Positions 48,097 to 63,616 of a DNA stretch of 64,000 nt are shown piece after piece. Within the stretch, counting starts at the first letter, position 1, and every line of letters starts with the position of its first letter. The translations under genes and the position numbers were made by a program. The stretch is from Candidatus Zhuqueibacterota bacterium (GTDB lineage: Bacteria; Zhuqueibacterota; Zhuqueibacteria; Residuimicrobiales; Oceaniaggregativiventaceae). The notes beneath the pieces were generated by a model. That model had not been told where the DNA came from, searched no databases, and was given only the letters and a program-made list of their open reading frames with translations. The DNA is taken from positions 1 through 64,000 of the forward strand of contig WJMF01000153.1 in the NCBI GenBank assembly GCA_014728085.1, given 5' to 3'.

Positions 48097-49173
48097 TTAA
48101 GCACAAGATTTCACAACCTGATATTTAAAAAAAGCGGCACATGTACCTTCGCTCGATACCATACAAGCTCCGATGGGTGAGTCGGGCCGGCACTCTTTGG
48201 CAAACAAACCGCATTGCAGGGGTGTTTTTATACCCTTCAGAATATCTCCGCAAATACAACCGGAAGGGGTCGGGGATTTTTTCACTTTAACCGGAAATCG
48301 GTAAAGAGCATCAAAACGCCTGAACCCGGATTTGATTGCCAGGCCACTGGCAGGAATCATGCCCAAACCACGCCACTCTGAATCACACGGTTCAAAGACC
48401 CGATGCATTAGTGCCAGAGCTTTTGTATTTCCTATCGCTTTAACCACGCGGTCGTATTGTATCCCGGCAACACATTCGTTTCTCTTGATTTGCCGACAAA
48501 GCATCAAGACGGAAACAAGTATATCACCCGGATCAAAACCGGAAACCACACAGGCAATATTATGATGCTTGGCCAGCCATTCATAAGCCTGAATGCCAAT
48601 GATAGCACTGACATGCCCCGGACAGATCAAACCCTGAATTTGTATCTGACGGTCCGCGGCCAGGCGCTTCAATGCTTCCGGCATGGTTTTATGGGCACAA
48701 GCCACCGAAAAATTGGTTACCTTGTTTTCCCTGGCCATTTCAATGACAGCAGCAACAGCCGGAGCAGTGGTTTCGAATCCAACACCGATAAAAATATAAT
48801 GAAGATGCTTGTCTCTTATTGCCATTCTCAACGCATCAACCGGAGAGTAAACCACACGCACCTGATGTCCGTTCATTTTTTCACTCTCAAGGCTGGCTGA
48901 GCTTCCCGGAACCCGTATCAAGTCTCCAAAGGTGCAAATTACGGTATCATCCCGAGTGGCCAGCTGTAAAACCGCATCGATGAAATGAATCGGCGTCACG
49001 CATACAGGGCAGCCGGGACCGGAGACCAGTTGCAGATTCGATGGCAGCATTGACCGCAACCCGTACCGGTGTATAGCCATGGTATGGGTTCCGCATACCT
49101 CCATCAGGCGGATGGGCTCCTCTCCGCATTCGGTATGAATCTCATCTACAATTTTTTGAATTTCAGCCTTCAT
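48097..49173 (-). CDS. hypD: Hydrogenase maturation protein HypD
   Basis: 358 aa. HypD, with HypC, holds the Fe(CN)2CO intermediate on a [4Fe-4S]-containing scaffold. The family motifs are present: 'MEVCGTHTMAIHRYGLRSML' (Cys and His), 'SGPGCPVCVTP' (CxxC), 'GVGFETTAPAVAAVI', and a C-terminal Cys cluster ('PSGCICGDIL', 'PLQCGLFAKECRP'). Starts 8 nt after hypC. The usual length for the family is 350-375. Confidence 0.97.
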   Translation of the reverse strand: MKAEIQKIVDEIHTECGEEPIRLMEVCGTHTMAIHRYGLRSMLPSNLQLVSGPGCPVCVTPIHFIDAVLQLATRDDTVICTFGDLIRVPGSSASLESEKMNGHQVRVVYSPVDALRMAIRDKHLHYIFIGVGFETTAPAVAAVIEMARENKVTNFSVACAHKTMPEALKRLAADRQIQIQGLICPGHVSAIIGIQAYEWLAKHHNIACVVSGFDPGDILVSVLMLCRQIKRNECVAGIQYDRVVKAIGNTKALALMHRVFEPCDSEWRGLGMIPASGLAIKSGFRRFDALYRFPVKVKKSPTPSGCICGDILKGIKTPLQCGLFAKECRPDSPIGACMVSSEGTCAAFFKYQVVKSCA

Positions 49174-49181
49174 TTATTCGA

Positions 49182-49403
49182 TCACAAGGTAGAAATACCG
49201 TAATCCTTTCTCAATTTGATAGATTCCTGCGCTGCCGTGGCATCCATTTTCTCAATCGCAAATCCTGCATGCACAAGAACATAATCACCAACGCCTATAT
49301 TATCGATTAGATTAAGCTGGACTGTGCGTTTCACACCTTCCACTTGTGCAACAGCTTCATCACCGTCGATGGAGATGATTTTCATGGGGATTCCTAGACA
49401 CAT
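49182..49403 (-). CDS. hypC: Hydrogenase maturation chaperone HypC
   Basis: 73 aa, the normal size. It begins 'MCLGIPMKI', with the Cys2 that binds the Fe(CN)2CO unit and the large-subunit precursor. Family features 'EGVKRTVQLNLID' and 'VGDYVLVHAGFAIEKMD' follow. It shuttles between HypD and the hydrogenase large subunit. It starts 8 nt after hypF and is 8 nt before hypD. Confidence 0.97.
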   Translation of the reverse strand: MCLGIPMKIISIDGDEAVAQVEGVKRTVQLNLIDNIGVGDYVLVHAGFAIEKMDATAAQESIKLRKDYGISTL

Positions 49404-49411
49404 AAAGGCCT

Positions 49412-51742
49412 CTAATTATCAAGGTTCATCGCTGCGACCACAGCTTGCCCGAGCGATATGCCCCCGTCATTTGGAGGCACAATCCGATGGTTCAGGACGG
49501 TAAAACCATGTTGTCGCAGTTTTTGGTTAAACATTTTATTCAAATAATAATTTTGAAAACAACCACCACTCAGGACGACTTTGTTGATATGGTATTTTTC
49601 TCGCAATATTTCAGCCAGTTGAGTAAAAATCATGACCAGCGACCGGTGAAATCCGAAGGCTATTTCCGCCACGGGCTGTTTGTTCAACAGATGTTCAACA
49701 ATCGAATTCATGACATCCCGGGTCCTGACCCGGTAATCCCGGCCGCCATCATCAATACAAAAGGGAAGGGACAGTGAAGAAATTGATTTTTCCGACTCGA
49801 GAATATCCGGAAAAAAACGGTACATAGATTTTTCGAGATCTATTGCAGCCTGTCCTTCATAGTTATTGAATTTGCACACATTAAGCAACGCCGCAACAGC
49901 ATCGAACAATCGCCCCATGCTTGAAGTGGGGATGCAGTTGAATCCGGATTGTACCATGCGCCAGACCGCATTTATCTTCATTTCGTTCATCCCCAGAATC
50001 TGTGCCAGCATTGTTTCGTTGACCGGACCGTTTTCCTGGGCGGCAAAATGGGAAACCGCCATTCTCCAGGGCTCCTTTACGCCGCTATCCCCTCCCGGCA
50101 GGGGTGTATAATCGAGATGCGCGATGCGCTGAAAGCGGGAACAATCGGCCAGCAAAACTTCTCCTCCCCATATCGCTCCATCCGTACCAAATCCGGTTCC
50201 ATCAAAAGCAAAACCGATAACCCGTTCATCGGCCTGATTTTCCGCCAGACAAGAAGCGATGTGGGCATGATGATGCTGGACACCGAATGACTTTGGTTGT
50301 TTTCGCGCCCAGCGACTCGAAAAGTAGCCGGGATGCATATCATGTGCAATCACAAGAGGCTCTGTTTTCAGCATCTGTTTTGTCTGATGAATGGTTTCTC
50401 GAAAAAAAATCTGGCTGGAGACAGCATCCAGATCGCCGACATGTTGACTCGGATAGGCTTTATTTCCCTGTATCATACAGACTGTGTTTTTCAGGTCGGC
50501 ACCAACAGCAAGGATAGCAGGCCATTTTGCGGTCAGAGGAACAGCTTGAGGCACATACCCCCGGGCACGACGGATGTACAAGGGAGTTTTATCGATTAGG
50601 CGCACCACCGAATCATCACAGCGGCTTAGAATTTCTCTGTCATGTAATAAAATATAATCTGCAATCTTTCCCAGACGGTCGAGAGCCTGTTGATTATCAA
50701 TGACAATTGGCTCGTCAGACAAGTTTCCCGAGGTCATTACCAGGGCATCCAGGTGGCGCAGAAGCAAATGATGTAAAGGGGTATAGGGCAGCATAACGCC
50801 GCAAAAAAGATCCTGTGGCGAGACGGCATCTGCAAGAAAATCGTTTTGTTTCATTTTGACGATAAGAATGGGGCGTGCCTTGCTTTCGAGATAATTCTGT
50901 TCATCCTCACTGAGCACACAAAACTTGAGGATTGTATTTATATCTCGCAGCATTACTGCAAACGGCTTTTTCCAGCGATGCTTCCTCGTCCGCAATCTTT
51001 CCACCGCTTGCTGATTTTTAGCATCCACAACCAGTTGAAATCCACCAAGGGCGCGAATGGCCAAAATCTTACCTTCGTTCAACAAAGCAGCGATAACAGT
51101 CAACGAGTGATCGATATCTACTCTGTTGCCCCCGGCGTCGACGAGCTTGAGCCCCGGACCGCAAAGCGGACAGGCATTCGGCTGGGCATGGAATCGTCTG
51201 CTCAATGGATCATCATATTCCCGTTGGCACTGCGGACACATTTGGAAAGAGTTCATCGAAGTGTTGCAGCGATCATATGGTAACCGGGCGGTAATGGTAA
51301 AACGGGGCCCGCAATTTGTACAATTAATGAAAGGATAGAGATATCGTCTGTCAGAAGGTGTAAACAATTCCCGCAGGCAGTCCTCGCAAAGAGTAATATC
51401 CGGAGGAATATTGGGAGCAAAGGATTTCGTTAGGGCACTCTCGCGAATTATAAAATCCGTATAACCAAGCGGCTGTAGAGATTGAATGTCCAAACTCGAG
51501 ATATGAGCCACTGCCGGAAGTTCTTCGCGCAAAGCCAGGAGAAATTTTTCACTACCGCCGTTTTTACTTTCTATATCTATGATTACATCAGAGGAACGGT
51601 TGGCAATAAATCCACAGAGATTGTATCGCTTTGCCAGGCGGTAAACAAACGGACGAAAGCCGACACCCTGTACCGTGCCGGATATGATCAACCGTTTTCG
51701 TTCAATCGTTTCTCTCTTGCCGTTTTGAGGTAATTTATCCAC
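49412..51742 (-). CDS. hypF: Carbamoyltransferase HypF
   Basis: 776 aa. HypF uses carbamoyl phosphate and ATP to carbamoylate HypE. In order: acylphosphatase domain ('SGTVQGVGFRPFVYRLA', about 20-95), two zinc-finger-like motifs ('INCTNCGPRFTI', 'CPQCQREYDDP', about 110-200), YrdC/Sua5-like domain ('ALGGFQLVVDA', about 200-380), and the Kae1-like carbamoyltransferase domain ('VQHHHAHIASCLAEN', 'FDGTGFGTDG', 'VVLSGGCFQNYYLN'). The predicted start is a GTG at 51742, inside hypB (55-bp overlap), with GAAGG 9 nt upstream. A shorter reading would lose the acylphosphatase N-terminus, so the overlap is probably real. Confidence 0.95.
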   Translation of the reverse strand: MDKLPQNGKRETIERKRLIISGTVQGVGFRPFVYRLAKRYNLCGFIANRSSDVIIDIESKNGGSEKFLLALREELPAVAHISSLDIQSLQPLGYTDFIIRESALTKSFAPNIPPDITLCEDCLRELFTPSDRRYLYPFINCTNCGPRFTITARLPYDRCNTSMNSFQMCPQCQREYDDPLSRRFHAQPNACPLCGPGLKLVDAGGNRVDIDHSLTVIAALLNEGKILAIRALGGFQLVVDAKNQQAVERLRTRKHRWKKPFAVMLRDINTILKFCVLSEDEQNYLESKARPILIVKMKQNDFLADAVSPQDLFCGVMLPYTPLHHLLLRHLDALVMTSGNLSDEPIVIDNQQALDRLGKIADYILLHDREILSRCDDSVVRLIDKTPLYIRRARGYVPQAVPLTAKWPAILAVGADLKNTVCMIQGNKAYPSQHVGDLDAVSSQIFFRETIHQTKQMLKTEPLVIAHDMHPGYFSSRWARKQPKSFGVQHHHAHIASCLAENQADERVIGFAFDGTGFGTDGAIWGGEVLLADCSRFQRIAHLDYTPLPGGDSGVKEPWRMAVSHFAAQENGPVNETMLAQILGMNEMKINAVWRMVQSGFNCIPTSSMGRLFDAVAALLNVCKFNNYEGQAAIDLEKSMYRFFPDILESEKSISSLSLPFCIDDGGRDYRVRTRDVMNSIVEHLLNKQPVAEIAFGFHRSLVMIFTQLAEILREKYHINKVVLSGGCFQNYYLNKMFNQKLRQHGFTVLNHRIVPPNDGGISLGQAVVAAMNLDN

Positions 51743-52356
51743 TCTTCAATACCTTCTCCGGTAGCACATGAACAATTTATCCAAACAAGATCAGGATTTA
51801 ATGCATATGCCTCTCGTTTCGGTTTTTCAACATCAAACGACTGCAATGTCAAATAATCGATCTTGTTTAAAATTATACAATCGGCTTTCTGAAATGTTGC
51901 AGGATATTTTTCCACTTTCTCATCACCTTCCGGAATGCTAAAGACTACCGTGCGGATATGCTCACCCAATTTGAATCCGGTTGGACAGACAAGATTACCG
52001 ACATTTTCAATAAAAAGAATATCAATGGTTTTAAGATCAAAATCCTTCAAGGCCTTATTGACTTGTTGCGCCTCCAGATGACAGGCTCCCCCGGTCGTCA
52101 GTTGGGCACAGGGAATGCCATGCTGCTGTATGCGTTCGGCATCACGCGACGTAGCGAGATCTCCAACCAGAACAGCCGGGCGAAGATTTACATTCTTCAA
52201 AGCGGAAATTGTTTTTTCCAACAAGGTGGTTTTCCCTGCTCCCGGTGATCCCAGGATCCCAACCACAAAAACCCGTTCCCGGTTAAAAAGGTCTTGATTC
52301 TCCTCAGCCAGGTAATCATTTGACTTTAATATATTCTCATAAATCGGAACTTGCAA
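51688..52356 (-). CDS. hypB: Hydrogenase nickel-incorporation GTPase HypB
   Basis: 222 aa. SIMIBI-class GTPase that drives nickel delivery to the [NiFe] centre with HypA. P-loop 'GILGSPGAGKTTLLEKTI' near 32-49, 'VLVGDLATSRDA' (Walker-type Asp), 'GGACHLEA' with the switch/Ni-site Cys and His, 'IENVGNLVCP' and 'LNKIDYL' (NKxD). There is no N-terminal His-rich stretch. The start is TTG (52356), with GGAGGT 5 nt upstream, and overlaps hypA by 20 bp. Confidence 0.96.
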   Translation of the reverse strand: MQVPIYENILKSNDYLAEENQDLFNRERVFVVGILGSPGAGKTTLLEKTISALKNVNLRPAVLVGDLATSRDAERIQQHGIPCAQLTTGGACHLEAQQVNKALKDFDLKTIDILFIENVGNLVCPTGFKLGEHIRTVVFSIPEGDEKVEKYPATFQKADCIILNKIDYLTLQSFDVEKPKREAYALNPDLVWINCSCATGEGIEEWINYLKTAREKRLNENG

Positions 52357-52699
52357 TTTCTACCTCCATATTCTCCACCATTAGGTCATCATCTGGTTCG
52401 ACCTGAACATCCTTGCTGCCGCATTCCGGGCACTCGAATAAAAGTCTGTCACTGCTTTTGAACAAAGCGTTGCATTGTTTGCATTTGATTTGAAAAGGAC
52501 TGGTGACAACTTTTAACTCTGCCCCCTCAGCCATCGTCTCTTTTGAAACCACCTGAAATGCCGTGGATAGCAAATCCGCCTCAATGCCGGATAATCTGCC
52601 GATTCGAAGGGTAACAGAACGAATCCTCTGCGCTTTTGCCGCTTTTGCTTTTTCAACGAGGATCTTGAACAAACTCTGCATAATAGACATTTCGTGCAA
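52337..52699 (-). CDS. hypA: Hydrogenase nickel-insertion protein HypA
   Basis: 120 aa. HypA carries nickel through its N-terminal amine and His2, which are retained only if translation begins at the TTG at 52699, giving 'MHEMSIMQ' as in the family. GGAGAG lies 5 nt before it. The zinc finger follows ('KCKQCNALF' and 'FECPECGSKD', two CxxC pairs, about 74-97). The acidic C-terminus ('EPDDDLMVE') is slightly longer than usual. First gene of the hyp series, 12 nt after the GHKL ATPase gene. Confidence 0.96.
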   Translation of the reverse strand: MHEMSIMQSLFKILVEKAKAAKAQRIRSVTLRIGRLSGIEADLLSTAFQVVSKETMAEGAELKVVTSPFQIKCKQCNALFKSSDRLLFECPECGSKDVQVEPDDDLMVENMEVEIASSDL

Positions 52700-52711: not shown

Positions 52712-53260
52712 TTAAATTTCCGATTGAATGCGTTTTAGCTCTTGCTGCAAGTATTCCTTAAGGGGACGACCGAGCTGATATTTTACACATTCGTTATCCT
52801 CCATGCGGGCAAAAATCCAGTAGGAATCAAATAATAAACGGGCAAAGTCCGTTTGGTGTAAATATGCCAGATGAATATCGGTTGAACAAATAGCGATATT
52901 GACGATGGTATCCTCAATATCTCCCATTGGAGCGCGGTTCACATGATTCATTACAAATCCTATATCCAGTTCGGTTCCTCTGCCCCGTATCGACTGTATA
53001 TTAAAGTGCCCGTTACACGAAATGGCAGCCTGCTTTAAAAGCGGAATTCCAAGCCCCACGGTTCTCTCCTTACGAGAGGTGGTAAAAGGATCGGAAATGG
53101 TTTCTAAAAGATCTTTGGGTATACCTTTACCGTTATCTCTCAACCGTATACGTAAATAATTTTCGCTCTTCCGTTCCTCTATCGATATAACAAGCCTGCT
53201 TGCTTGGGCTTCAATGGCATTCATAGCTATATCCAGGATATGAAGTGAAAGTTCACGCAT
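52712..53260 (-). CDS. GHKL/HATPase-domain protein (anti-sigma/kinase-like)
   Basis: 182 aa. Residues 1-110 form a HATPase_c domain: N box 'ILDIAMNAIEAQA', G1 'RLRDNGKGIPKDLL', F/G2 'TVGLGIPLLKQAA' and 'SIRGRGTELDI'. No phospho-accepting His (HisKA) is present, so it is not a complete kinase; it resembles ATPases found beside multisubunit [FeFe]-hydrogenase genes and anti-sigma factors. The C-terminal 70 residues ('IHLAYLHQTDFARLLFDSYW') are unrecognised. It lies between the REC-PAS kinase gene and hypA, with small gaps on both sides (13 and 12 nt). Confidence 0.75.
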   Translation of the reverse strand: MRELSLHILDIAMNAIEAQASRLVISIEERKSENYLRIRLRDNGKGIPKDLLETISDPFTTSRKERTVGLGIPLLKQAAISCNGHFNIQSIRGRGTELDIGFVMNHVNRAPMGDIEDTIVNIAICSTDIHLAYLHQTDFARLLFDSYWIFARMEDNECVKYQLGRPLKEYLQQELKRIQSEI

Positions 53261-53273
53261 GGCAGACTCTTGA

Positions 53274-54746
53274 TTAATCTTTTTTTACAGGCAGGAATAC
53301 GCGAAAGGTCGATCCCTTTCCCTCTTCACTTAACAGTTCCAGGTATCCGTTGTGATTATCCGCAATCTTTTTGGCAATCGATAATCCAAGACCGGTTCCG
53401 GAAATTTTTCTCGTTACAGCATTATTGGAACGATAAAATTCTTCAAAAATATTTTTCTGATCTTCTTGGGAAATACCTATTCCCGTGTCTTGTACAGCAA
53501 CCGCAAGATAGCCGTCATTCATTTTTGCCGACACAGAAACAACTCCTCCTTCCGGCGTATATTTGATGGCATTGCTGATAAGATTGGAAAAAAGACGGGA
53601 GATTTCCTCATCGATGCCCTGAATAGCAGGAAGATTTTTATCACAGCCGAACTGCAAATCCAGTTTTTTTTCTTTAGCTTCATTTTCAAAAAAATTCACC
53701 GTTTCATGTAGAATGGTACAGATATCAATCGTTGTTTTGGTTTTGGATATTTCAGTCTTTTCTGTTCGGGATAAATCCAGTAAATCATTTATCAGATTCA
53801 GCAATGCTTTGGCTTTATTGCGGGACTTGCGAATCATGTCATCTACCTGTAACGTATCGCTGATATAGCCTTCAAGAATCAGATTCAAATAGCCATCTAT
53901 AGCACCCAGCGGTGCTTTGAGTTCATGGGCAACAAGGCGAACAAATTCTGATTTTAGTTTTTCCACCTTTTTTTCTTCTGTAATATCGCGTAACACCGTC
54001 ACCGTGCCCAGGCAATTATGATTCTCATCCAGAAGAGGCGTAATATTGGAATGCAAAAAACGCTCGTCTCTAGTCTGTATCTGCATCGTGGTGGAATTTG
54101 TAGACTTTTGCACTTTTTCCAAGGTTTCCGAGATTTGATTTTTTAGTCCGTCATTATGAATGAGATCATCAACTGTTTTACCGATGACTGCTTTTTGATT
54201 CAATCGCATCATTTTCAAAGCGACCGGATTGATCAGCACGACCTGGCCGGAACAATTGGTTACAATCAGGCCGTCGCTCATGGAATTGACAATTGTATGA
54301 GTACGGGTTTTCTCATTGGATAATTCCAACAGATTTCTATCACGCTCACGGCGCAGTTCGCGGGCTTCGAGGATCAAACGGCGCTTTTCCAGCCCTCTGT
54401 TCACCTTAACGCGAAACTCTTCCGGGGTAAACGGCTTGGGGAGATAATCATAGGCGCCTTTTGTCATTGCCTCTACAGCACTCTCTATGGTGGCAAAACC
54501 GGTGACAATGATGGCTACAATATCAGGATCATGAGCCTGTATTTTTTCCAAAAGTTTCATCCCGTCCAATTCGGGCATGATTAGGTCGAGCAGCACGAGA
54601 TCATATGGGTTTTCCCTGATCTTTTCCAGCCCAATTCGGCCGTTCTCTGCACCGTCCACTTGAAGGTCCATATCGGAAAGAATTCTCTGGCAACCGACTC
54701 GGATAATTTCTTCATCATCAACAACTAGTACTCTGGTGTTTCGCAT
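53274..54746 (-). CDS. REC-PAS-histidine kinase (hybrid, receiver first)
   Basis: 490 aa. In order: receiver domain (1-120, 'VLVVDDEEIIRVGCQRIL' and phospho-acceptor Asp in 'DLVLLDLIMP'), short coiled linker, PAS domain (about 155-260, 'IVNSMSDGLIVTNCSGQVVLI'), HisKA with 'RLVAHELKAPLGAIDGYL' (phospho-His, about 270), and HATPase_c with 'NLISNAIKYTPEGG', 'DTGIGISQEDQ' and 'GTGLGLSIAKKI' (about 370-490). There is no transmembrane segment, so it is cytosolic. An input receiver can be phosphorylated by one of the other kinases of this cluster. It is 12 nt downstream of a receiver-only gene. Confidence 0.9.
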   Translation of the reverse strand: MRNTRVLVVDDEEIIRVGCQRILSDMDLQVDGAENGRIGLEKIRENPYDLVLLDLIMPELDGMKLLEKIQAHDPDIVAIIVTGFATIESAVEAMTKGAYDYLPKPFTPEEFRVKVNRGLEKRRLILEARELRRERDRNLLELSNEKTRTHTIVNSMSDGLIVTNCSGQVVLINPVALKMMRLNQKAVIGKTVDDLIHNDGLKNQISETLEKVQKSTNSTTMQIQTRDERFLHSNITPLLDENHNCLGTVTVLRDITEEKKVEKLKSEFVRLVAHELKAPLGAIDGYLNLILEGYISDTLQVDDMIRKSRNKAKALLNLINDLLDLSRTEKTEISKTKTTIDICTILHETVNFFENEAKEKKLDLQFGCDKNLPAIQGIDEEISRLFSNLISNAIKYTPEGGVVSVSAKMNDGYLAVAVQDTGIGISQEDQKNIFEEFYRSNNAVTRKISGTGLGLSIAKKIADNHNGYLELLSEEGKGSTFRVFLPVKKD

Positions 54747-54758
54747 GAAAAGGGGCCT

Positions 54759-55148
54759 TTATTTAAGCAATTTATGTACTCTGTCCAACAATTCCCGGGG
54801 ATCCAGCGGTTTGGTTGCATAGGAATCGACTTTCATCCAGTCCTTGTCTTCGGAAAATCTAAAGTTAAATCCTGTTTTTTGCGGTGCAGAGGTCAACATC
54901 AAAATCGGCAATTCCTTCAAGTTTTGGTCCTCTTTTAAAGCGTATGCGACCCTGAATCCGGAATCCCGGTCCTCCATCATCAAATCCAGTACAAGCAAAT
55001 CAAAATGTTCGCTTTTCAATTTCCTCAATGCCGCATCCGCACTATCCGCCTCGTCAACGAGGTAACCATTCGATTCCAGAATGATTCGGTTTATTTCCCG
55101 AAATGCAGCATCATCATCTGCTAAAAGTATTTTTTTCCTCTCGCTCAT
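54759..55148 (-). CDS. Single-domain response regulator
   Basis: 129 aa, a stand-alone receiver. 'KILLADDDAAFREINRIIL' supplies the acidic pair, 'HFDLLVLDLMMEDRDSGF' the phospho-acceptor Asp, and 'MLTSAPQKTG' the switch Thr. A loop insertion after 'SAPQKTGFNFRFSEDKDWM' replaces the normal short beta4-alpha4 link, so this is a diverged receiver; the same insertion is present in the next gene. No output domain, so the protein likely relays phosphate or binds a partner. Confidence 0.88.
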   Translation of the reverse strand: MSERKKILLADDDAAFREINRIILESNGYLVDEADSADAALRKLKSEHFDLLVLDLMMEDRDSGFRVAYALKEDQNLKELPILMLTSAPQKTGFNFRFSEDKDWMKVDSYATKPLDPRELLDRVHKLLK

Positions 55149-55179: not shown

Positions 55180-55620
55180 TCAACTTTTTTTCATTCCGAT
55201 ACCTCTGTCATTCTTTGGTTTTTGCTTTTGCATCGGGTCTTTCTTCAACAGGGCATCTACTCTGTCCAATAATTCCTGGGGCTGTATTGGTTTTTCAACA
55301 AACTCCTGCACCGGCAAAAAGTCTCCGTCCTCTTCCGGTGAAAAACGAAAATCACTCTTGTCATGAATGGACGTAATCATCAGAACCGGAATGCTTTTTG
55401 AAATTTCATTTCGTCTCAGTTTATAGGCAAAATGAAAACCTTCTGTGCCGGTGGGCATCATCACATCCAAACAGATCAGATCGGGCTTGTACGTTTCAAT
55501 TTTTTCCCATGCTGTCTCCGGATTGTTGGCTTCTTCTACCTCATAACCGTTTTTTTCAAGGACGATTCTGTTGATGGTTCTAAAATCCTGATCATCATCT
55601 ACCAGTAATATTTTCGCCAT
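55180..55620 (-). CDS. Single-domain response regulator
   Basis: 146 aa. 'KILLVDDDQDFRTINRIVL' (acidic pair), 'YKPDLICLDVMMPTGTEGF' (phospho-acceptor Asp), 'MITSIHDKSDFRFSPEEDG' (switch Ser/Thr and the same long insertion as the neighbour). It is a paralogue of the 129-aa regulator, which follows after 31 nt. The C-terminal tail is basic ('KKDPMQKQKPKNDRGIG'). A strong AAGGAGG ribosome binding site and a TATAAT just upstream (55643-55638) suggest a new transcript could begin here. No output domain. Confidence 0.9.
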   Translation of the reverse strand: MAKILLVDDDQDFRTINRIVLEKNGYEVEEANNPETAWEKIETYKPDLICLDVMMPTGTEGFHFAYKLRRNEISKSIPVLMITSIHDKSDFRFSPEEDGDFLPVQEFVEKPIQPQELLDRVDALLKKDPMQKQKPKNDRGIGMKKS

Positions 55621-55756: not shown

Positions 55757-57784
55757 CTATACGACCTGGTTATCACCCGCCTTGCGATCATACTCTTCTG
55801 CGCCGGGTAACACGATCTGGAATTCAGCGCCCTTTTCGGGTTGAGATTTAACCTGAATTTTACCTCTGTGTTTTTGAACAATGCCATACGCAATGGCCAA
55901 TCCCAACCCCGTTCCTTTTCCCTGGGGACGTGTGGTAAAGAAGGGATCAAAAATTTTTTTAATCACATCTGCGGTCATGCCCGGTCCGCTGTCTCTGATG
56001 GAAGCGAAAACCTCTCCCTGCCGGTTTTTGGTGGTTAAGGTTAAGGTTCCCTTTCCCTTCATGGCTTCAACAGCATTGAGTATAATATTTAAAAACACCT
56101 GTTGCATCTGACCAACATCAGCGTACACTTTGGAAATGGACGGATCTAGATCCTTGATGATCTCGATGTGGTGAAACATGGACTGATGCACGACCAGCGA
56201 CAGGGTACTTTTGATGATGTTGTTGAGATCAACCATGGCCACTTTGATACGGGTTTGGCGGGCAAAATCCAGCAATCCCTGTACAATCTTTCGGCATCTC
56301 TCGGTTTCGTCCCGGATTTGGCTGATATCCTGGAAATAACCATGATTTTTATCCATCTTTTCCAATAAAAGACTGGAATAGAGCAGAATACCGCCCAAAG
56401 GATTGTTCAATTCATGTGCCACACCCGCTGCAAGCTGCCCCAGTGAGGCCAGCTTTTCCGCCTGAATCAGTTGATCCTGTGTTTTGGATAATTGTAAAAG
56501 CGAATCGGACAATTCCTCATTTGAATGCAGCAATTCCGCTTTTATGTTCTCTAATTTATCAATCATATAAGGCAGACACATCTCCGCCTCCGCCAAACCC
56601 TGAAAGACGGCAACCGCTTTTTCGCGGCACGTACCATATCCACAGGCCCCACAATTCAATTCATCTTCGGGTGAAAATTTGCCAATACGGTGCAGGATTT
56701 TTTCAATATCCCGTTCCGTCGGCTCGGCAGCCGAAAGAGCCCGGTCGGAAAAAGAGCGCTGCAGATTTGTTTTGTCATAGCGTGCATGATCAGCCGCAGC
56801 TTTCTGATGATCGAGATCCTTTTTGATGATATGTAAATAGTTAACAATTTTTTCTTTTCTGGCAAACATGGTAAGTTCATTTACCATCTTGGGACCATTG
56901 ATACAGCCTTTGCAGAACAAAAGGTCGAGAAATTTGGCACTGATATGATGGTCGGTAACCTCGGATAATATCTCCCGGACGCGATCCTGTCCCTCGGTAA
57001 TAACGATGTCATTTTCCAGCAAGTCTCCCTGCATCTCTCCTGTTCTCAACAAGCCACCCGAGACAGGAAATATTCTGCCAACATCGGCTATCGGCCCGGT
57101 CGGAAATTTTTCCTTCAGTTTTGATAGTACAATATGTCGCCGCTGAAAAAGCGTATCCAGCTCTTCAAAAGTTAAAACTTCATCGATCACCAGCCCTGTA
57201 TCAGGATCATCTTTTTCATGTTTTTTGGCAATACAGGGTCCGATAAAAACCAACTTCGCCTTCGGATCATATTTTTCCCTGATTGCCCGCCCCAACGCGA
57301 CCATTGGGGAAACGATAGGAGCCAGATAGGACATTAGCTCAGGATGGTATTTTTCAATATAATTAACAACAGCAGGACAGGGACTGCTGATCACAAGATT
57401 TTTCTGTTTTTGAAGATATAATTTATAAGCATTGGCCACCAAATCAGCACCAAATGCTACTTCATGAACCTCTGAAAAACCCAGTTCAATCAAACCGGCA
57501 ATGATTTGCAGAGGTTTGGCAGAAAAGGCAGCCGGAAAGGAGGGGGCCAGAAGCGCAATCGTTTTTACCGGGGCTCCCAAAAATGCTTCTGTCTGTTCGA
57601 CACCATCTTTGATTTGTTTCGCATTTTGAGGACATACCTTAACGCAATATCCGCATGCAATACATCTTTCGGCAATAACATGAGCCTGCTCGTTCTCCAC
57701 CCGTATCGCCTTCACCGGGCAATTGCGGATGCAGGAATAGCAGCGTTTACATTTTGTTTCAATTGTTTTTACAATCTGATCCAT
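55757..57784 (-). CDS. [FeFe]-hydrogenase-like sensor histidine kinase (copy A)
   Basis: 675 aa from ATG 57784 (a TTG two codons earlier is possible). In order: two [4Fe-4S] ferredoxin motifs (about 10-55, 'CKRCYSCIRNCP', 'CIACGYCVKVCP'); iron-only hydrogenase large-subunit-like domain (about 70-345) with 'SSPCPAVVNYIEKYHPEL', 'IGPCIAKKHEKDD' and 'LFCKGCINGP'; a second Fe-S motif 'LNCGACGYGTCREKAV' (about 385-400); a coiled linker; HisKA with phospho-His in 'AAGVAHELNNPLGGILL' (about 462); HATPase_c ending in 'GKGTGLGLAIAYGIVQKH'. The order Fe-S, hydrogenase-like, Fe-S, kinase is that of a redox- or H2-sensing kinase. No transmembrane helices. Ligand-site changes are described in the findings. 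Confidence 0.92.
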   Translation of the reverse strand: MDQIVKTIETKCKRCYSCIRNCPVKAIRVENEQAHVIAERCIACGYCVKVCPQNAKQIKDGVEQTEAFLGAPVKTIALLAPSFPAAFSAKPLQIIAGLIELGFSEVHEVAFGADLVANAYKLYLQKQKNLVISSPCPAVVNYIEKYHPELMSYLAPIVSPMVALGRAIREKYDPKAKLVFIGPCIAKKHEKDDPDTGLVIDEVLTFEELDTLFQRRHIVLSKLKEKFPTGPIADVGRIFPVSGGLLRTGEMQGDLLENDIVITEGQDRVREILSEVTDHHISAKFLDLLFCKGCINGPKMVNELTMFARKEKIVNYLHIIKKDLDHQKAAADHARYDKTNLQRSFSDRALSAAEPTERDIEKILHRIGKFSPEDELNCGACGYGTCREKAVAVFQGLAEAEMCLPYMIDKLENIKAELLHSNEELSDSLLQLSKTQDQLIQAEKLASLGQLAAGVAHELNNPLGGILLYSSLLLEKMDKNHGYFQDISQIRDETERCRKIVQGLLDFARQTRIKVAMVDLNNIIKSTLSLVVHQSMFHHIEIIKDLDPSISKVYADVGQMQQVFLNIILNAVEAMKGKGTLTLTTKNRQGEVFASIRDSGPGMTADVIKKIFDPFFTTRPQGKGTGLGLAIAYGIVQKHRGKIQVKSQPEKGAEFQIVLPGAEEYDRKAGDNQVV

Positions 57785-57793
57785 ATGCAATTA

Positions 57794-58285
57794 TCATCGA
57801 ATGGCCAACAGATAAATCAATACCATAAGCACCATAAAACTTACCAGGGCGGTAATCGCAATGTGCAGGATATGTTTTCTCTCTTTTTGTAACTTTACAT
57901 TTTCCCGCTGTAAATCCTGGTGTTCCAAAATATGACTGAGCAAATTGGATAATTTCTCAGGAGGAAATGGTTTACAAATAAAATCATAGGCACCATCTTT
58001 CATAGATTGTACCGCATTTTCAACTGTTGCAAAAGCTGTCATTATAATGACGGGCAATTCCCTGTTTTTTTCCTTTAATTTCTTGAGCAAGGTAACGCCA
58101 TCCATTCCCGGCATTTTAATATCGACAACAGCAACGACAGGCTGTTCGGTATCATACTTTTTCAACGCTTCCATACCATTTTCCGCCGTTATGACGGAAA
58201 ATCCGTCACTTTCCAGCCACTCCGACAAAGAGTCACGTATAATTTCCTCATCATCTACAAGTAAAACTTTACTTTTAAAAGCCAT
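57794..58285 (-). CDS. Response regulator with C-terminal transmembrane helix
   Basis: 163 aa. Start taken at ATG 58285 because AAGGAGG lies 10 nt upstream; an earlier ATG at 58306 overlaps that site. The receiver (about 1-118) has 'VLLVDDEEIIRDSLSEWL', phospho-acceptor Asp in 'AVVDIKMPGMDG', switch Thr in 'IIMTAFATVENAVQSM' and Lys in 'DFICKPFPPEKL'. A coiled helix (about 120-135) leads to a hydrophobic segment 'ITALVSFMVLMVLIYLLAI', predicted to span the membrane. A membrane-anchored receiver without DNA-binding or enzymatic output is unusual. It lies between the two [FeFe]-like sensor kinases. Confidence 0.85.
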   Translation of the reverse strand: MAFKSKVLLVDDEEIIRDSLSEWLESDGFSVITAENGMEALKKYDTEQPVVAVVDIKMPGMDGVTLLKKLKEKNRELPVIIMTAFATVENAVQSMKDGAYDFICKPFPPEKLSNLLSHILEHQDLQRENVKLQKERKHILHIAITALVSFMVLMVLIYLLAIR

Positions 58286-58305
58286 AAGGCTATATCCTCC
58301 TTGCA

Positions 58306-60261
58306 TTATCGGTCATGAAATTCTGGAATTTTAAGAATAAAACACGTTCCTTTTCCGACTTGCGACTTTACTTCAATATCACCGTCATGCATCAGAATGA
58401 TGCTATATGCCGTAGATAAGCCCAGGCCGATGTTTGAATCATGGTCTCTGGTCGTAAAAAAGGGTTCGAAAATTTTATCCTTGTGCTCCGGTGAAATGCC
58501 GACACCCGTATCCTCTATTTGGATCTGAACAAATCCCGTATCGGCAACCTTTTTAACCCGAAAAATAATGGAACCACCATTCGGCATGGCTTGAGCAGAG
58601 TTTATGATCATATTGATCAAAATCTGCTGTAACTGGGTAAAATCCGCTTTGATATAAAGATCCTGATTCGGAAACTCCTTTTCAATTTTAATATTTTGCA
58701 ACGAAACCTGATGTGAAACGATGAAAAGAGTTTTCTCAATTATCGCTATTGCAGAGACCTTTTGAATCTGTGGCTCGGCCGGTTTGGCAAAATCCAGCAA
58801 TCCCTTGACAAATTCGGATACTCTCGTGGTCTCTTTTTCCATTGTGACGAGATATTTTTTGAATCTTTCCAAATCAAGGGTATCAGAATCGATCAGCTTT
58901 TGCATAAATTTGAGATAATTTAAAACGCCGCTTAACGGATTATTGATCTCATGGGCAATATTGGCGGCCATCTTACCCATCGTGGCGAGCTGTGCTGATC
59001 TGACCACCCGCTGCTGGGCATTCATAAGCTCTTTGTTTACCTTTTCCAGCCTCTCGATGAGGTAGGGAAAACACATTTCAACTTCTGCTATGCCCTGGTA
59101 AACAGCGATCGCCTTTTCCCGACAGGTGGAATAGCCACAGGCACCACAATTGAGCTCATCTTCAGGTTTAAATTTATTGATTTGGGCAAATATCTTTTGA
59201 ATTTCCTCTTCACTTGGCTGTTCCGCGGATATTGCTTCCACCTCATAATCTCGCTGTAAGGAAACTTTATAGACAGAAGGTTTACCGGGAGGGTCCACCT
59301 GCAAATATTTTTTGACAAAATTGATGATAATATCCTTACGGGTAAAAACCGATAAATCATTTACCATGCCGGGGCCGTTGATACACCCCTCGCAAAAGAG
59401 GAGATCAAAAAAATGTTCCTCCAGTTCTCCTTCCTGCAATCGCTGCAGGATATTTAAGACCCGTTCACTTCCCTCAGTGACAATAATATCATTTTGCAGC
59501 ACATCTTTTTCCAGGCCGGCAGCTCGCAAAAGCCCGCCGGAAATCGGAAAAATCGCTCCCAACCGGGGCCGGGGATCGTCAAATTGTCTCTCCAAAGAGT
59601 CATTGATCGCGATCTGTTGATCATCAAATATCTGATAAAGCTCTTCAAAGGTTAAGACCTGATCGATCAGGTCTTTCACATTTCTGTCGTCTTTTTCCTT
59701 CTTTTTTGCAATGCATGGGCCGATAAATACGACCCTGGCATTTTTGTCGTAGAAGGAACGAACGATTTTGGCAGTGGCGATCATGGGAGAGACCAGCGGA
59801 GCCAGATATGGCAAAAGATCGGGATGATATTTTTCTATAAAGTAGACCACTGCCGGACAGGGTGTAGAGATGACCGGTTTCTTTTCTATAGCCAGCTCTG
59901 CGTATTTAGCGGCCAATGCATCAGCACCAACAGCGACCTGCACAACGCGGTCGAATCCCAGCCGATGCAACGCGCCAACCACCCGTAATGGATTCTGATC
60001 GTGAAAAGCAGCTGGAAAAGAGGGCGCCAGCAGGGCAATAGTGTTCTCCCTGGAAGAAAGATAATCCAGGGTTTCCCGAACACCGCTTTCAATTTTTTTG
60101 GCTTTTTGAGTACAAACCCGGACACAATTGCCACAACCGATACACCTCTCTTCGATCACCATGGCCTGACCTTGTTCGATACGAATCGCTTTCGAAGGAC
60201 AATGCCTGACACATGCATAACACCGTCTGCAACGATCTTTTATGGTCTCAACCACTGCCAT
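58306..60261 (-). CDS. [FeFe]-hydrogenase-like sensor histidine kinase (copy B)
   Basis: 651 aa, paralogue of copy A with the same order: ferredoxin motifs ('CRRCYACVRHCP', 'CIGCGNCVRVCT', about 9-55), hydrogenase-like domain (about 70-345; 'STPCPAVVYFIEKYHPDL', 'IGPCIAKKKEKDD', 'LFCEGCINGPGM'), Fe-S motif 'LNCGACGYSTCREKAI' (about 380-395), and HisKA/HATPase ('ANIAHEINNPLSGVLNYL' with the phospho-His, 'NIGLGLSTAYSIILMHDG'). The ATG lies 20 nt beyond the T run of a strong terminator, so this gene likely has its own promoter, or depends on readthrough. The 5' end lacks a clear Shine-Dalgarno sequence. Confidence 0.92.
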   Translation of the reverse strand: MAVVETIKDRCRRCYACVRHCPSKAIRIEQGQAMVIEERCIGCGNCVRVCTQKAKKIESGVRETLDYLSSRENTIALLAPSFPAAFHDQNPLRVVGALHRLGFDRVVQVAVGADALAAKYAELAIEKKPVISTPCPAVVYFIEKYHPDLLPYLAPLVSPMIATAKIVRSFYDKNARVVFIGPCIAKKKEKDDRNVKDLIDQVLTFEELYQIFDDQQIAINDSLERQFDDPRPRLGAIFPISGGLLRAAGLEKDVLQNDIIVTEGSERVLNILQRLQEGELEEHFFDLLFCEGCINGPGMVNDLSVFTRKDIIINFVKKYLQVDPPGKPSVYKVSLQRDYEVEAISAEQPSEEEIQKIFAQINKFKPEDELNCGACGYSTCREKAIAVYQGIAEVEMCFPYLIERLEKVNKELMNAQQRVVRSAQLATMGKMAANIAHEINNPLSGVLNYLKFMQKLIDSDTLDLERFKKYLVTMEKETTRVSEFVKGLLDFAKPAEPQIQKVSAIAIIEKTLFIVSHQVSLQNIKIEKEFPNQDLYIKADFTQLQQILINMIINSAQAMPNGGSIIFRVKKVADTGFVQIQIEDTGVGISPEHKDKIFEPFFTTRDHDSNIGLGLSTAYSIILMHDGDIEVKSQVGKGTCFILKIPEFHDR

Positions 60262-60390: not shown

Positions 60391-60906
60391 TCAATGTTCT
60401 TTGGGCAATATCATCGGCTCGTCAAGTTCCTGAAACTCGGGAAAGTCACTCTTGACTTTTTTGCTTACTTTTTTGGGCAACAAACCCAATGCAACTCCGA
60501 CACCATACAAAATAGCTTCTGGTCTGGGTGGGCAACCGGGAACATAATAATCTACTGGTATCGCCTTGTCCACTGCACCGTACATGTTATAGCTGTCAAA
60601 AAAAACATCGCCACCACAGGCACAGGAGCCGATCGCAAATACCAGTTTGGGATTCGGCGTGGCATTGTAAAGCCGTTTAACAGCCGGAGCAATTTGCCGG
60701 CTTACGCCTCCGGTTACCAGGAGTACATCGGCATGGCGCGGTGAACCTACCAGCTTGATACCAAAACGCTCTGCATCATAATAAGGTGTGAGTACATTGA
60801 TAATTTCAATATCACAGCCGTTACAGGCGGCACAGTTTGTATGATAAACCCAAAGTGCTTTGGGAAAGGCCTTTTTACATAGTTTTTTTAACATAATCTT
60901 CCTCAT
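60391..60906 (-). CDS. Group 4 [NiFe] hydrogenase small subunit (NuoB/EchC/HycG family)
   Basis: 171 aa. Carries the proximal [4Fe-4S] cluster: 'CAACNGCDIEIINVL' (CNGCDIEI is diagnostic for Ech/Mbh/Hyc small subunits rather than NuoB), 'IGSCACGGDVF' and 'VPGCPPRPEAI' supply the remaining Cys ligands. It passes electrons from the ferredoxin subunit to the large-subunit [NiFe] site. No Tat signal, as expected for the cytoplasmic face of the membrane. Last gene before the terminator; the catalytic large subunit is outside the window. A second ATG four codons downstream is an equal start candidate. Confidence 0.92.
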   Translation of the reverse strand: MRKIMLKKLCKKAFPKALWVYHTNCAACNGCDIEIINVLTPYYDAERFGIKLVGSPRHADVLLVTGGVSRQIAPAVKRLYNATPNPKLVFAIGSCACGGDVFFDSYNMYGAVDKAIPVDYYVPGCPPRPEAILYGVGVALGLLPKKVSKKVKSDFPEFQELDEPMILPKEH

Positions 60907-60917
60907 TACCTTTCAGA

Positions 60918-62444
60918 TTATACACTACCGAGAGACCAGATAGATAAAACAGCTCTGGTTGCATTGTCCAGAATGGGATACAGGATTTGCGGATAGACGC
61001 CGATCAATATACACAAAAGAGCCAGTAGAACGATACTGAAATACATTAAGAAAGGAACTTCTTTTAGTTCGCCGTTTTCAAGATCGTTTATCGCTTTTGA
61101 CGGGGCGCGCCAGAAAACCCGATAAGCCGCTGAGACCAGACAGGCAAGCGTCAGCAGACCGGTAAGAATCGAAATAACCATCGCCCAATAAATACCCTGC
61201 TCACCAACAGCGAAAAAAAGTGTAAATTTACTCATAAATCCATTAAAAGGCGGTAACCCGCCAATGGCAAGGGCGCCGACGACGAAACAGAATGCGGTTA
61301 TTGGCATTTTCTTCGCCAGCCCTCCCAACTGGGAAATTTTACGCAGCCCCCCGGTAGCATACATGATCGCGCCCACACTCATAAAGAGCAATCCTTTTAT
61401 CAATGTATGGTTGACCAGGTGAAAGAGACCGCCGTAAATTCCCAGATAGGTGCCAAGACCGAGACCTTCAAAGACATAGGCAATCTGACTAACACTTGAA
61501 TACGCCAGCATTCGCTTCAGATCATCCTGCACCAGAGCCAGAAAGATACCGATGAGCATACTCGCTGAACTGAGAATAGCAATAAAAATAACGATGGAAT
61601 TATAGGTCGGAGCGAAAATAGTCACGGTTCGGGCCAGCGCATAAGCGCCGATATTAATAATCAAACCGGACAACAGAGCACTGATGGGTGAGGGCGCTTC
61701 AGAGTGAGCATCAGGCAGCCAGGCATGAAACGGTACAAGGCCCGCCTTGGTGGCAAAACCGACCGTCATAAAAGCGACACCCAACAAAGCGATATTTTTC
61801 GGTATGAGTTGAGCGATTCGCCCGATTTCGGTAAGCAAAAGCGCGTGGGCTCCCACTTTGAGATGTGGATATGCTGCGGAAAAAATCAGAACGATACCCA
61901 GCAGGGCAAAGGTTATACCGACCACCACCAGTAAGACATATTTGTACCCGGCTTCGAGCGAAGCGCGTTTTCGATAAAAAGCCACCAACAAGGCTGTTGC
62001 CAGCGTCGTGCCTTCCATCGCCACGTACAACATCACCATATGGTTGGTGCTAACCGTCCAATTCATGGTACCGGTAAAAAGCAAAATGAGCGCGTAATAG
62101 AGGGTAAGACGCCCGTCGGTAACCAGGCCGAGCTCCCGCTCGTGTTTCATGTAGCGGATGGATTGCAGGGTTATCAGAATAACCATTCCATCAACAAGCA
62201 AAATGATCAATGCGCTCAATCCATCAACAAAAATACCCTGCCCCAATGCGGTTACCGTATTGCCGGCAAAGACAATCGCGGCCAAACGAATGGCAACGAA
62301 AAATTCCACCACCAGAATGATCAGGGTGGTAATTTCACGTGCATTTTTAAATTTGCTAAAGCCAAACAGGACCGTAAAGATCGCCCCTAAAATAGGCAAT
62401 AGGATTAAAATCAATGGTAAAAATGACTGGATGGGTTCTGCCAT
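60918..62444 (-). CDS. Hydrogenase membrane subunit, antiporter-like (HyfF/NuoM family)
   Basis: 508 aa, about 14 membrane helices. Proton-pumping antiporter-like subunit. Conserved residues appear in 'MLYVAMEGTTLATALLVAFY' (TM5 Glu), 'GVAFMTVGFATKAGLVPFHA' and 'WLPDAHSEAPSPISALLSGL' (TM7-8 Lys/His region). The wording is closest to HyfF/HycC of hydrogenase-4/formate hydrogenlyase. AGAGG precedes ATG 62444. It is in a compact series with the HyfE-like gene (12 nt) and the small subunit. Confidence 0.92.
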   Translation of the reverse strand: MAEPIQSFLPLILILLPILGAIFTVLFGFSKFKNAREITTLIILVVEFFVAIRLAAIVFAGNTVTALGQGIFVDGLSALIILLVDGMVILITLQSIRYMKHERELGLVTDGRLTLYYALILLFTGTMNWTVSTNHMVMLYVAMEGTTLATALLVAFYRKRASLEAGYKYVLLVVVGITFALLGIVLIFSAAYPHLKVGAHALLLTEIGRIAQLIPKNIALLGVAFMTVGFATKAGLVPFHAWLPDAHSEAPSPISALLSGLIINIGAYALARTVTIFAPTYNSIVIFIAILSSASMLIGIFLALVQDDLKRMLAYSSVSQIAYVFEGLGLGTYLGIYGGLFHLVNHTLIKGLLFMSVGAIMYATGGLRKISQLGGLAKKMPITAFCFVVGALAIGGLPPFNGFMSKFTLFFAVGEQGIYWAMVISILTGLLTLACLVSAAYRVFWRAPSKAINDLENGELKEVPFLMYFSIVLLALLCILIGVYPQILYPILDNATRAVLSIWSLGSV

Positions 62445-62456
62445 GAGTTTACCTCT

Positions 62457-63122
62457 TTATCTCTTCAATTCAGAGAGCTTGACTGTGTCTGTTGATCCGA
62501 ATACTTGATAAATATTTGAACTAAGAAATAGCAGCAAAAACACTACAGCCACAACATTTGTGAGAATGCCGATCATTGTTGTTTCGCGCAGAGTCGGTGT
62601 CAAAGCAAGAAGAACAAGATGTACACCATTTTCCAAAAGCGCCAATCCGATTACTGTTTTGACTGCATCCCGCCGGGTCAGCAGGGTCCAGATACCCAAT
62701 GCAAAAATAGTAAAAGCACCGGCAAGCAGACTGCGGACTGGCTCCTGCATGGCTGCTTCCGTTGGTGCCAGTAAAAAAAGATATTTTTTGAATAAATAAA
62801 AGAAAACAACCAAAATAATCGATACCAGGGTTAGAGAGATTCCAAATCCGATAATTGGACGATGTTCAACGGGAGGCAAAATTCTTACAAACCTGAGAAT
62901 CATATAGGGGAGAACAACGACCTTGGTAATAAAGCAGGTAATGGCCCAAAGATAAAGGCTTGGGTTATCCTTTATATAGGCATAGCTGATGATGATTGCA
63001 CATAAAAAGATCGAATGCAGCATATAGGCCAATGCAGTGTTTTTTAAATTCCGTATCTCTGCGGCGGCAATCGAGGCAATTAATATCGCCAGGGTCAGTG
63101 TGACCAGCGTTTGTTCTGTCAT
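62457..63122 (-). CDS. Hydrogenase membrane subunit HyfE-like
   Basis: 221 aa, about six to seven hydrophobic helices. The C-terminal half has 'KTVIGLALLENGVHLVLLAL', the NuoK-like motif with the conserved Glu, preceded by 'LLAGAFTIFALGIWTLLTRR'. N-terminal half 'RNLKNTALAYMLHSIFLCAI' matches HyfE. Its ATG overlaps the ferredoxin stop codon by four bases (ATGA), showing translational coupling. It supports proton translocation with the HyfF-like subunit. Confidence 0.85.
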   Translation of the reverse strand: MTEQTLVTLTLAILIASIAAAEIRNLKNTALAYMLHSIFLCAIIISYAYIKDNPSLYLWAITCFITKVVVLPYMILRFVRILPPVEHRPIIGFGISLTLVSIILVVFFYLFKKYLFLLAPTEAAMQEPVRSLLAGAFTIFALGIWTLLTRRDAVKTVIGLALLENGVHLVLLALTPTLRETTMIGILTNVVAVVFLLLFLSSNIYQVFGSTDTVKLSELKR

Positions 63123-63616
63123 TTTTTATCCTCCTCCCTCTGCGGTGGTGCTCCGGAAGGCATACAATCTCCCAAAAAATTACGCCCCTGCCGCAGACGC
63201 CTGGTCGGAATTTTATCGATACTATTCTCGATTTCAAAACAACGGCCACAGCGAGCGCAGGTCGCCATATAGAGATCCTGTTCAATGTACAAATCGGTTT
63301 TATCATTGGTTGAGGTTTCAAATTCAATCGTCATATTTATTGCTTCTTCCGGACAAACCTCCTCGCAGCGGCCGCAATATGTACAGCGATCGAGGATAAA
63401 TTCCATACGGGTTTGGTCGCCGTCATCATAAAACCGGATCAGCCGGGAAGGACATACATTGGCACAGCCACCGCAGCCGATACATTTGGTTTCATCAATG
63501 TCCAGTTTGCCGCGAAACCCCTCCGGAATTTCAGCGCCGTTACCAAACGGATAAGGAAGCGTAACCCGCAAATTCGAGAAACAAATTGCCGCTTCTTTGA
63601 TTTTAGATTTGAACAT
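63119..63616 (-). CDS. Hydrogenase ferredoxin-type subunit (HyfH/NuoI-like)
   Basis: 165 aa. Two [4Fe-4S] motifs: 'CIGCGGCANVCPSRLI' (about 45-60) and 'CTYCGRCEEVCPEEAI' (about 77-92), as in NuoI/HycF. A third Cys group, 'TCARCGRCFEIENSIDKIP' (about 118-136), is extra for a NuoI-like subunit and may bind another cluster or zinc. It relays electrons from a soluble donor to the small subunit. Start ATG 63616; cytoplasmic. Confidence 0.9.
   Translation of the reverse strand: MFKSKIKEAAICFSNLRVTLPYPFGNGAEIPEGFRGKLDIDETKCIGCGGCANVCPSRLIRFYDDGDQTRMEFILDRCTYCGRCEEVCPEEAINMTIEFETSTNDKTDLYIEQDLYMATCARCGRCFEIENSIDKIPTRRLRQGRNFLGDCMPSGAPPQREEDKK

Follow-up and report, generated by a model that had tools for sequence, protein, structure and literature searches.

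Group C1 of the [FeFe] hydrogenases is listed in HydDB as 'histidine kinase-linked (putative)' (PMC5037454), and in Hydrogenedentota C1 proteins with a HATPase domain have been described beside A3 enzymes (PMC11406978). Two further sensor proteins, TmHydS (group C, M2f) and TamHydS (group D, M2e), contain a 2x[4Fe-4S] domain, an H-domain and a C-terminal Cx2Cx4Cx16C motif and have lost C299 (PMC10055695, PMC8163306). Here, we describe K1 and K2, two sensor kinase genes that adjoin a formate-hydrogenlyase-like group 4 [NiFe] hydrogenase operon in a 64,000-nucleotide (nt) stretch of contig C65 from a 5.19 Mb KSB1-type genome; this whole stretch is referred to as the window, and positions follow its numbering. 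Control of a hydrogenase by a hydrogenase-derived sensor together with a histidine kinase is also known from HoxBC and its kinase HoxJ (group 2b). An initial annotation of this DNA had treated the fusion in K1 and K2 as unfamiliar, which the HydDB entry and the described C1-HATPase proteins contradict, and a fusion unique to this genome is ruled out, since a single tblastn scan confirmed 586 relatives. A literature search outside subscription journals found no paper on such a sensor beside a group 4 [NiFe] hydrogenase.

Domain organization of K1 and K2

K1 and K2 are paralogues with 47% identity over their full length, and Pfam places the same domains in each: a 2x[4Fe-4S] ferredoxin, the H-domain Fe_hyd_lg_C (PF02906, with E-values of 1.9e-49 and 3.5e-48 for the two kinases), an FeS domain (PF04060), HisKA and HATPase_c. 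Together with the positions of the open reading frames, this agrees with the domain order initially annotated for both genes, and their location between the group 4 [NiFe] operon and the hyp genes was likewise annotated correctly. The second Fe-S motif is an exact fit to Cx2Cx4Cx16C, and the kinase portion is that of a histidine kinase, with an H-box in HisKA and the N, G1 and G2 boxes in the HATPase (HEINNP/HELNNP, DTGVGI/DSGPGM and GLGLS/GLGLA).

The linkage of a PF02906 H-domain to a histidine kinase is shared with C1, as are P1-P3 motifs that are hard to find and a frequent position next to A3 HydABC, and two Hydrogenedentota contigs (L073, L082) fall within the sensor family and adjoin HydABC genes. 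Unlike C1, which we compared by its description, K1 and K2 are paired with a group 4 [NiFe] hydrogenase, belong to a separate clade and have a tail-anchored receiver as partner. They resemble TmHydS and TamHydS in the features listed above, and TmHydS also in the Gly at the M353 position. They differ from both in carrying the kinase in cis, in having CxGC at motif L3, a form that L058, a PAS-type relative, lacks, and in the absence of a PAS domain from the Pfam matches of either kinase, where HydS group C3/M2f has a PAS after the FeS domain. Group D/M2e is set apart by the same-chain kinase and by Gly, not Ser or Thr, at M353. In contrast to HoxBC/HoxJ, where the hydrogenase fold is unrelated and sensor and kinase are separate, the sensor here is PF02906 rather than PF00374, one polypeptide holds both functions, and sensors of this type are mostly associated with bifurcating or energy-converting enzymes.

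The H-domain is altered at the cluster motifs

To compare the H-domain, K1 and K2 were aligned against CpI and the HydA proteins of the same genome, and 17 sensors were aligned for invariance. K1 and K2 keep a single L1 Cys (before Pro), have lost C299 and have Gly at the M353 position; L2 retains GPCxAKKxE; and in L3, CxGC replaces CxxxC, so that the pair carries CxGC and x-C-P in place of the CxxxC and TSCCP-type L1 of [FeFe] hydrogenases. Across the 17 sensors, one L1 ligand Cys, the Cys, Lys and Glu of L2 and both L3 Cys do not vary. The proton-transfer Cys position is occupied by Pro, Ser, Ala or Thr. An AlphaFold model of the sensor (mean predicted local distance difference test score 77.5) has CbA5H, DdHydAB variants, TmHydA and CpI as top Foldseek matches (TMq ~0.65), and the fold of [FeFe] hydrogenases is therefore retained.

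Among the 116 sensors scored, 103 of the 106 with a fused kinase and 5/5 with a fused sigma-54 activator had the CxGC form of L3, which is one residue shorter than in hydrogenases; 0 PAS-type kin had it, their L3 being CxxGC or unscored. Of the three kinase-fused exceptions, L121 has CxxGC, and L023 and L073 were unscored, probably because N-terminal extensions shifted the motif outside the searched interval; the L023 sequence reads FCEGCING. This near-universal replacement of CxxxC, together with the absent proton-transfer Cys, is new for kinase- and sigma-54-fused members. Loss of C299 and M353 alone is no bar to H-cluster binding in TmHydS (PMC10055695), and the L3 deletion is a further change beyond those. 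A degenerate KSB1 sensor kinase (L056:8980-11100) has no hydrogenase nearby and reads ITACLAQ at L2, with the Lys lost and the Cys kept.

Sensors pair with hydrogenases by branch

A context-blind contig scan, analysed for the best 80 of the 586 confirmed relatives, covered many phyla in a sample that leans towards the query; with KSB1 relatives added, these gave the 116 sensors, four of them from contigs represented twice. By output, 106 were kinase-fused, 5 sigma-54-fused and 5 other. Context labels were assigned by a reference-based script, and group 1 and group 3 [NiFe] genes were recognized by reading the loci. By script, the nearest hydrogenase was [FeFe] HydA for 80 sensors and group 4 [NiFe] for 18, with none or hyp genes only for the other 18. 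In the context-blind scan itself, 65/80 loci had the sensor next to an [FeFe] enzyme, in line with the initial annotation, by which domains of this type are as a rule found with [FeFe] hydrogenases. Altogether, hydrogenase genes lie near ~105/116 sensors (98 identified by script and 7 by inspection), so that the kinases are not scattered away from hydrogenases and the hydrogenase-linked role first proposed holds. The seven are L034 and L035 (next to sulfhydrogenase-like genes of a second group 4 type), L029 (an operon of that second type split over two contigs), L070 (HydB/HydC), L083 (group 3-like [NiFe], Dehalococcoidales), and L128 and L142 (group 1 [NiFe], Peptococcaceae and Desulfosporosinus). 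Some sensors, L033, L072, L100 and L145, have no hydrogenase nearby. In at least nine KSB1 genomes, [FeFe]- and [NiFe]-linked sensors coexist, each adjoining its own enzyme.

In a quick tree of 119 sensor regions (SH-aLRT supports, without bootstraps), the group 4 [NiFe]-linked sensors formed one clade of 26 rows (SH-aLRT 96), in which K1 lies in one subclade (98) and K2 and the second group 4 type lie in another (97), and the majority of [FeFe]-linked sensors formed a separate group of 78 (92). The [FeFe] label requires 8 changes on the tree, compared to a shuffled mean of 35.8. The family, widespread and little studied, is probably HydDB group C1 plus kin, usually adjoining bifurcating [FeFe] HydABC, as judged from the literature description and the Hydrogenedentota members, and its branches each pair with one hydrogenase kind. 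The separate clade of group 4 [NiFe]-linked KSB1 sensors is new, as are the genomes with both kinds and the sensors beside group 3-like and group 1 [NiFe] hydrogenases.

The group 1 case is sigma-54-fused. In L128:9989-12199 and L142:2797-5016, upstream of group 1 [NiFe] genes, the sensor is joined to a sigma-54 AAA+ activator with a helix-turn-helix and has no kinase; L144, L145 and L098 carry the same fusion. The gaps to the hydrogenase in L128 and L142 contain TGGTATGCTTTTTGCA and TGGCATGATATTTGCA, with 2 and 1 mismatches to the -24/-12 consensus; matches per whole locus are not above chance, and the sole support is that the two sites occupy corresponding positions in the two loci. An NtrC-like regulator follows the sensor in L083 and in two KSB1 genomes (L025, L026), the latter by sequence inspection.

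Distribution of the H-cluster maturases

Among KSB1 genomes, HydE, HydF and HydG were all over the cut-off only in G000, G020 and G023; G028 had HydE and HydG with HydF not over the cut-off, G005 had fragments, and G001 had a HydE-like match below the cut-off. A further new observation is that 18 other sensor-bearing KSB1 genomes, at least 90% complete, had no HydE, HydF or HydG over the cut-off. HydABC-like [FeFe] genes were present without detectable HydE, HydF or HydG in KSB1 genomes G002, G003, G004, G006, G008-G011, G013, G014, G017 and others. Because several HydEFG-negative KSB1 genomes still carry HydABC, the argument from maturase absence is weakened except in G022, G027 and G032, three of the 18, which have no detected HydEFG and no full HydA and keep K1 beside the group 4 [NiFe] hydrogenase; since maturase non-detection may differ from cofactor absence, we place most weight on these three. 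Elsewhere, HydG was over the cut-off in 17/25 sensor-bearing genomes of other loci.

Redox sensing as the favored function

Judged from sequence, we lean towards the view that K1 and K2 are soluble histidine kinases that sense redox state and serve specifically the group 4 [NiFe] hydrogenase next to them. The H-domain has probably turned from an H2-splitting site into a redox sensor and most likely binds a [4Fe-4S] cluster rather than a full H-cluster, and the two kinases are best interpreted as Fe-S redox sensors of the electron pool of that hydrogenase, perhaps lacking the 2Fe subcluster. Electrons of the ferredoxin pool would enter through the N-terminal 2x[4Fe-4S] domain and equilibrate with a cluster on the four H-domain Cys; a shift in the state of the Cx2Cx4Cx16C cluster, which abuts the helix leading into HisKA, would then switch autophosphorylation. 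K1 would probably phosphorylate the tail-anchored receiver RR170, K2 and a hybrid kinase would probably feed single-domain receivers, and the output would tune hydrogenase synthesis or activity to electron pressure, H2 acting only indirectly if at all. A wider and more tentative proposal, to which we give a little under even chances, is that the whole kinase- and sigma-54-fused family has lost the 2Fe subcluster and become a [4Fe-4S] sensor of the ferredoxin pool with branches wired to [FeFe] or [NiFe] enzymes, the KSB1 branch controlling a group 4 [NiFeSe] hydrogenase with an N-terminal bridging selenocysteine (Sec).

Several observations weigh against this interpretation. All four potential cluster-ligand Cys are retained, as is the Lys whose counterpart in hydrogenases makes contact with the 2Fe cyanide; the window genome carries HydEFG; and either the HydABC of maturase-negative genomes differ from ordinary hydrogenases or the maturases go undetected. 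The window cassette has only receivers and kinases and no DNA-binding regulator, the region immediately upstream of the operon yielded no sigma-54-like site, and no biochemical data were found for any kinase-fused member. Control of [NiFe] synthesis, as initially annotated, is accordingly unsupported in the window genome.

Alternatively, K1 and K2 could be true H2 sensors: HydEFG would insert a complete H-cluster into the H-domain, and the kinase would be switched when H2 binds there, a mechanism put forward for group C/D HydS. Such a role would accord with the invariant ligand Cys, L2 Lys and Glu, with HydEFG in the window genome, with the HydG matches at other loci, and with the active H-cluster that TmHydS and TamHydS bind despite changes at C299 and M353/M497 (PMC10055695, PMC8163306). 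We consider it rather unlikely given that CxGC replaces CxxxC at the ligand pair anchoring both subclusters, that members occur in genomes with neither detected HydEFG nor full HydA, and that degenerate L056 keeps its Cys while losing the L2 Lys. The H2 sensing initially assigned to K1 and K2 is unproven, given the altered H-cluster motif and the many hosts without detectable 2Fe maturation genes.

A general Fe-S or O2-stress sensor, for which cluster damage rather than pool redox or H2 is the signal and which protects an O2-labile hydrogenase, would explain the many clusters per chain and the rubrerythrin gene downstream in many cassettes. This is improbable, as the sensor branches track hydrogenase type and not rubrerythrin, and the same search found no rubrerythrin in [FeFe]-linked cassettes. 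That the genes are neighbors by inheritance only, with kinases acting on unrelated targets, fits a cassette without an output domain and the four loci without a hydrogenase nearby, and is very improbable in view of a pairing that recurs with four hydrogenase kinds and with kinase or sigma-54 output, and of a context label strongly clustered on the tree.

Gene neighborhood in the window

Along the minus strand, the order is FdhA-like, sulfhydrogenase beta- and gamma-like, HycI protease, HyfD-like, HyfB-like, large subunit, NuoH-, NuoI-, HyfE-, HyfB- and NuoB-like, followed by K1, RR170, K2, RR146, RR129, REC-PAS-histidine kinase, HATPase, hypA, hypB, hypF, hypC, hypD, hypE and rubrerythrin (Table 1). 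The kinase/[NiFe]/hyp arrangement recurs in KSB1 relatives of several families and is therefore far beyond chance. The C-terminal hydrophobic helix of RR170 (mean hydropathy 2.76 over 19 residues) is present in nearly all K1-linked homologues, and RR170 may act at the membrane, the site of the hydrogenase. A sigma-54 promoter for the window operon was rejected, as matches with two mismatches in L005 and one mismatch in the window were not significantly above chance and none lay directly upstream; sigma-70 and terminator scans were near chance.

Table 1 Positions of the sensor kinases and surrounding genes in the window
Feature	Position	Strand	Description and basis
K1	58306..60261	minus	651 amino acids; 2x[4Fe-4S] ferredoxin, H-domain, FeS, HisKA, HATPase; relatives and [NiFe]-linked clade placement
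K2	55757..57790	minus	677 amino acids; K1 paralogue, identical domain order
RR170	57794..58306	minus	Receiver with C-terminal transmembrane helix (tail-anchored), directly downstream of K1; Pfam Response_reg and hydropathy
RR146	55180..55620	minus	Single-domain receiver; Pfam; kept in cassette of relatives
RR129	54759..55148	minus	Single-domain receiver; Pfam; kept in cassette of relatives
Hybrid kinase	53274..54746	minus	REC-PAS-HisKA-HATPase; Pfam; kept in cassette of relatives
Small HATPase-domain protein	52712..53260	minus	182 amino acids; Pfam; homologues also next to HydABC operons
Group 4 [NiFe] small subunit	60391..60906	minus	NuoB-like; Pfam
Group 4 antiporter-like membrane subunit	60918..62444	minus	NuoL/M/HyfB-like; Pfam
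HyfE-like membrane subunit	62457..63122	minus	Position and sequence; named by inspection
NuoI-like subunit	63119..63616	minus	2x[4Fe-4S]; Pfam
hypA	52337..52699	minus	Named by inspection
hypB	51688..52356	minus	Named by inspection
hypF	49412..51742	minus	Named by inspection
hypC	49182..49403	minus	Named by inspection (MCLGIP start)
hypD	48097..49173	minus	Named by inspection
hypE	47035..48045	minus	Named by inspection

Predicted selenocysteine in the neighboring hydrogenase

The [NiFe] large subunit lies just past the window edge (contig C65 64594-66297; L005:4595-6298, minus strand), and its best solved relative is HycE of Escherichia coli formate hydrogenlyase (406 bits), followed by Pyrococcus furiosus MBH. 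An in-frame TGA, interpreted as a Sec codon, takes the place of the second Cys in the N-terminal RxCGxC motif. In 15 of 15 close homologues in the class, counting that of the window genome, a single TGA is present, always at that position; the second group 4 type has a Cys codon there. Every C-terminal motif that was matched reads DPCFSC. Across 14 genes, the codon was invariant at only 9 of 234 degenerate positions with an invariant amino acid, and seven of the nine comprise the TGA, the preceding codon and five codons from the stretch immediately downstream, where a conserved RNA hairpin is predicted (z -3.85). The genome contains SelA and one tRNA-Sec over the cut-off, and a frameshift or split gene was ruled out. 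By established numbering, we take this position to be that of a ligand bridging Ni and Fe. In known [NiFeSe] enzymes, Sec is a non-bridging ligand (PMC11212049), the passages of a 2026 review that we examined list no N-terminal Sec in [NiFe] large subunits (PMC13188914), and our literature search found no paper on Sec at the N-terminal position.

Two other features were observed in this region. A formate dehydrogenase alpha-like gene (L005:12336-14303, minus strand) has Tyr (SARFYQAPT) at the expected Mo-ligating Cys/Sec position, and four very long open reading frames (1746-2263 amino acids) lie at 17942-42178 of the window.

Implications

H2 sensing is assumed for proteins that are annotated as sensory [FeFe] hydrogenases. 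If the 2Fe subcluster cannot be held by a large branch of them with a fused kinase, a redox sensor has been misfiled as a hydrogenase and hydrogenase counts in metagenomes are inflated. The selenocysteine hydrogenase next to the kinases would offer a natural system in which to test Sec at a bridging position. Because a single sensor module is paired with [FeFe] and with three [NiFe] kinds of hydrogenase, it opens a testable way to learn how anaerobes adjust H2 metabolism to ferredoxin supply.

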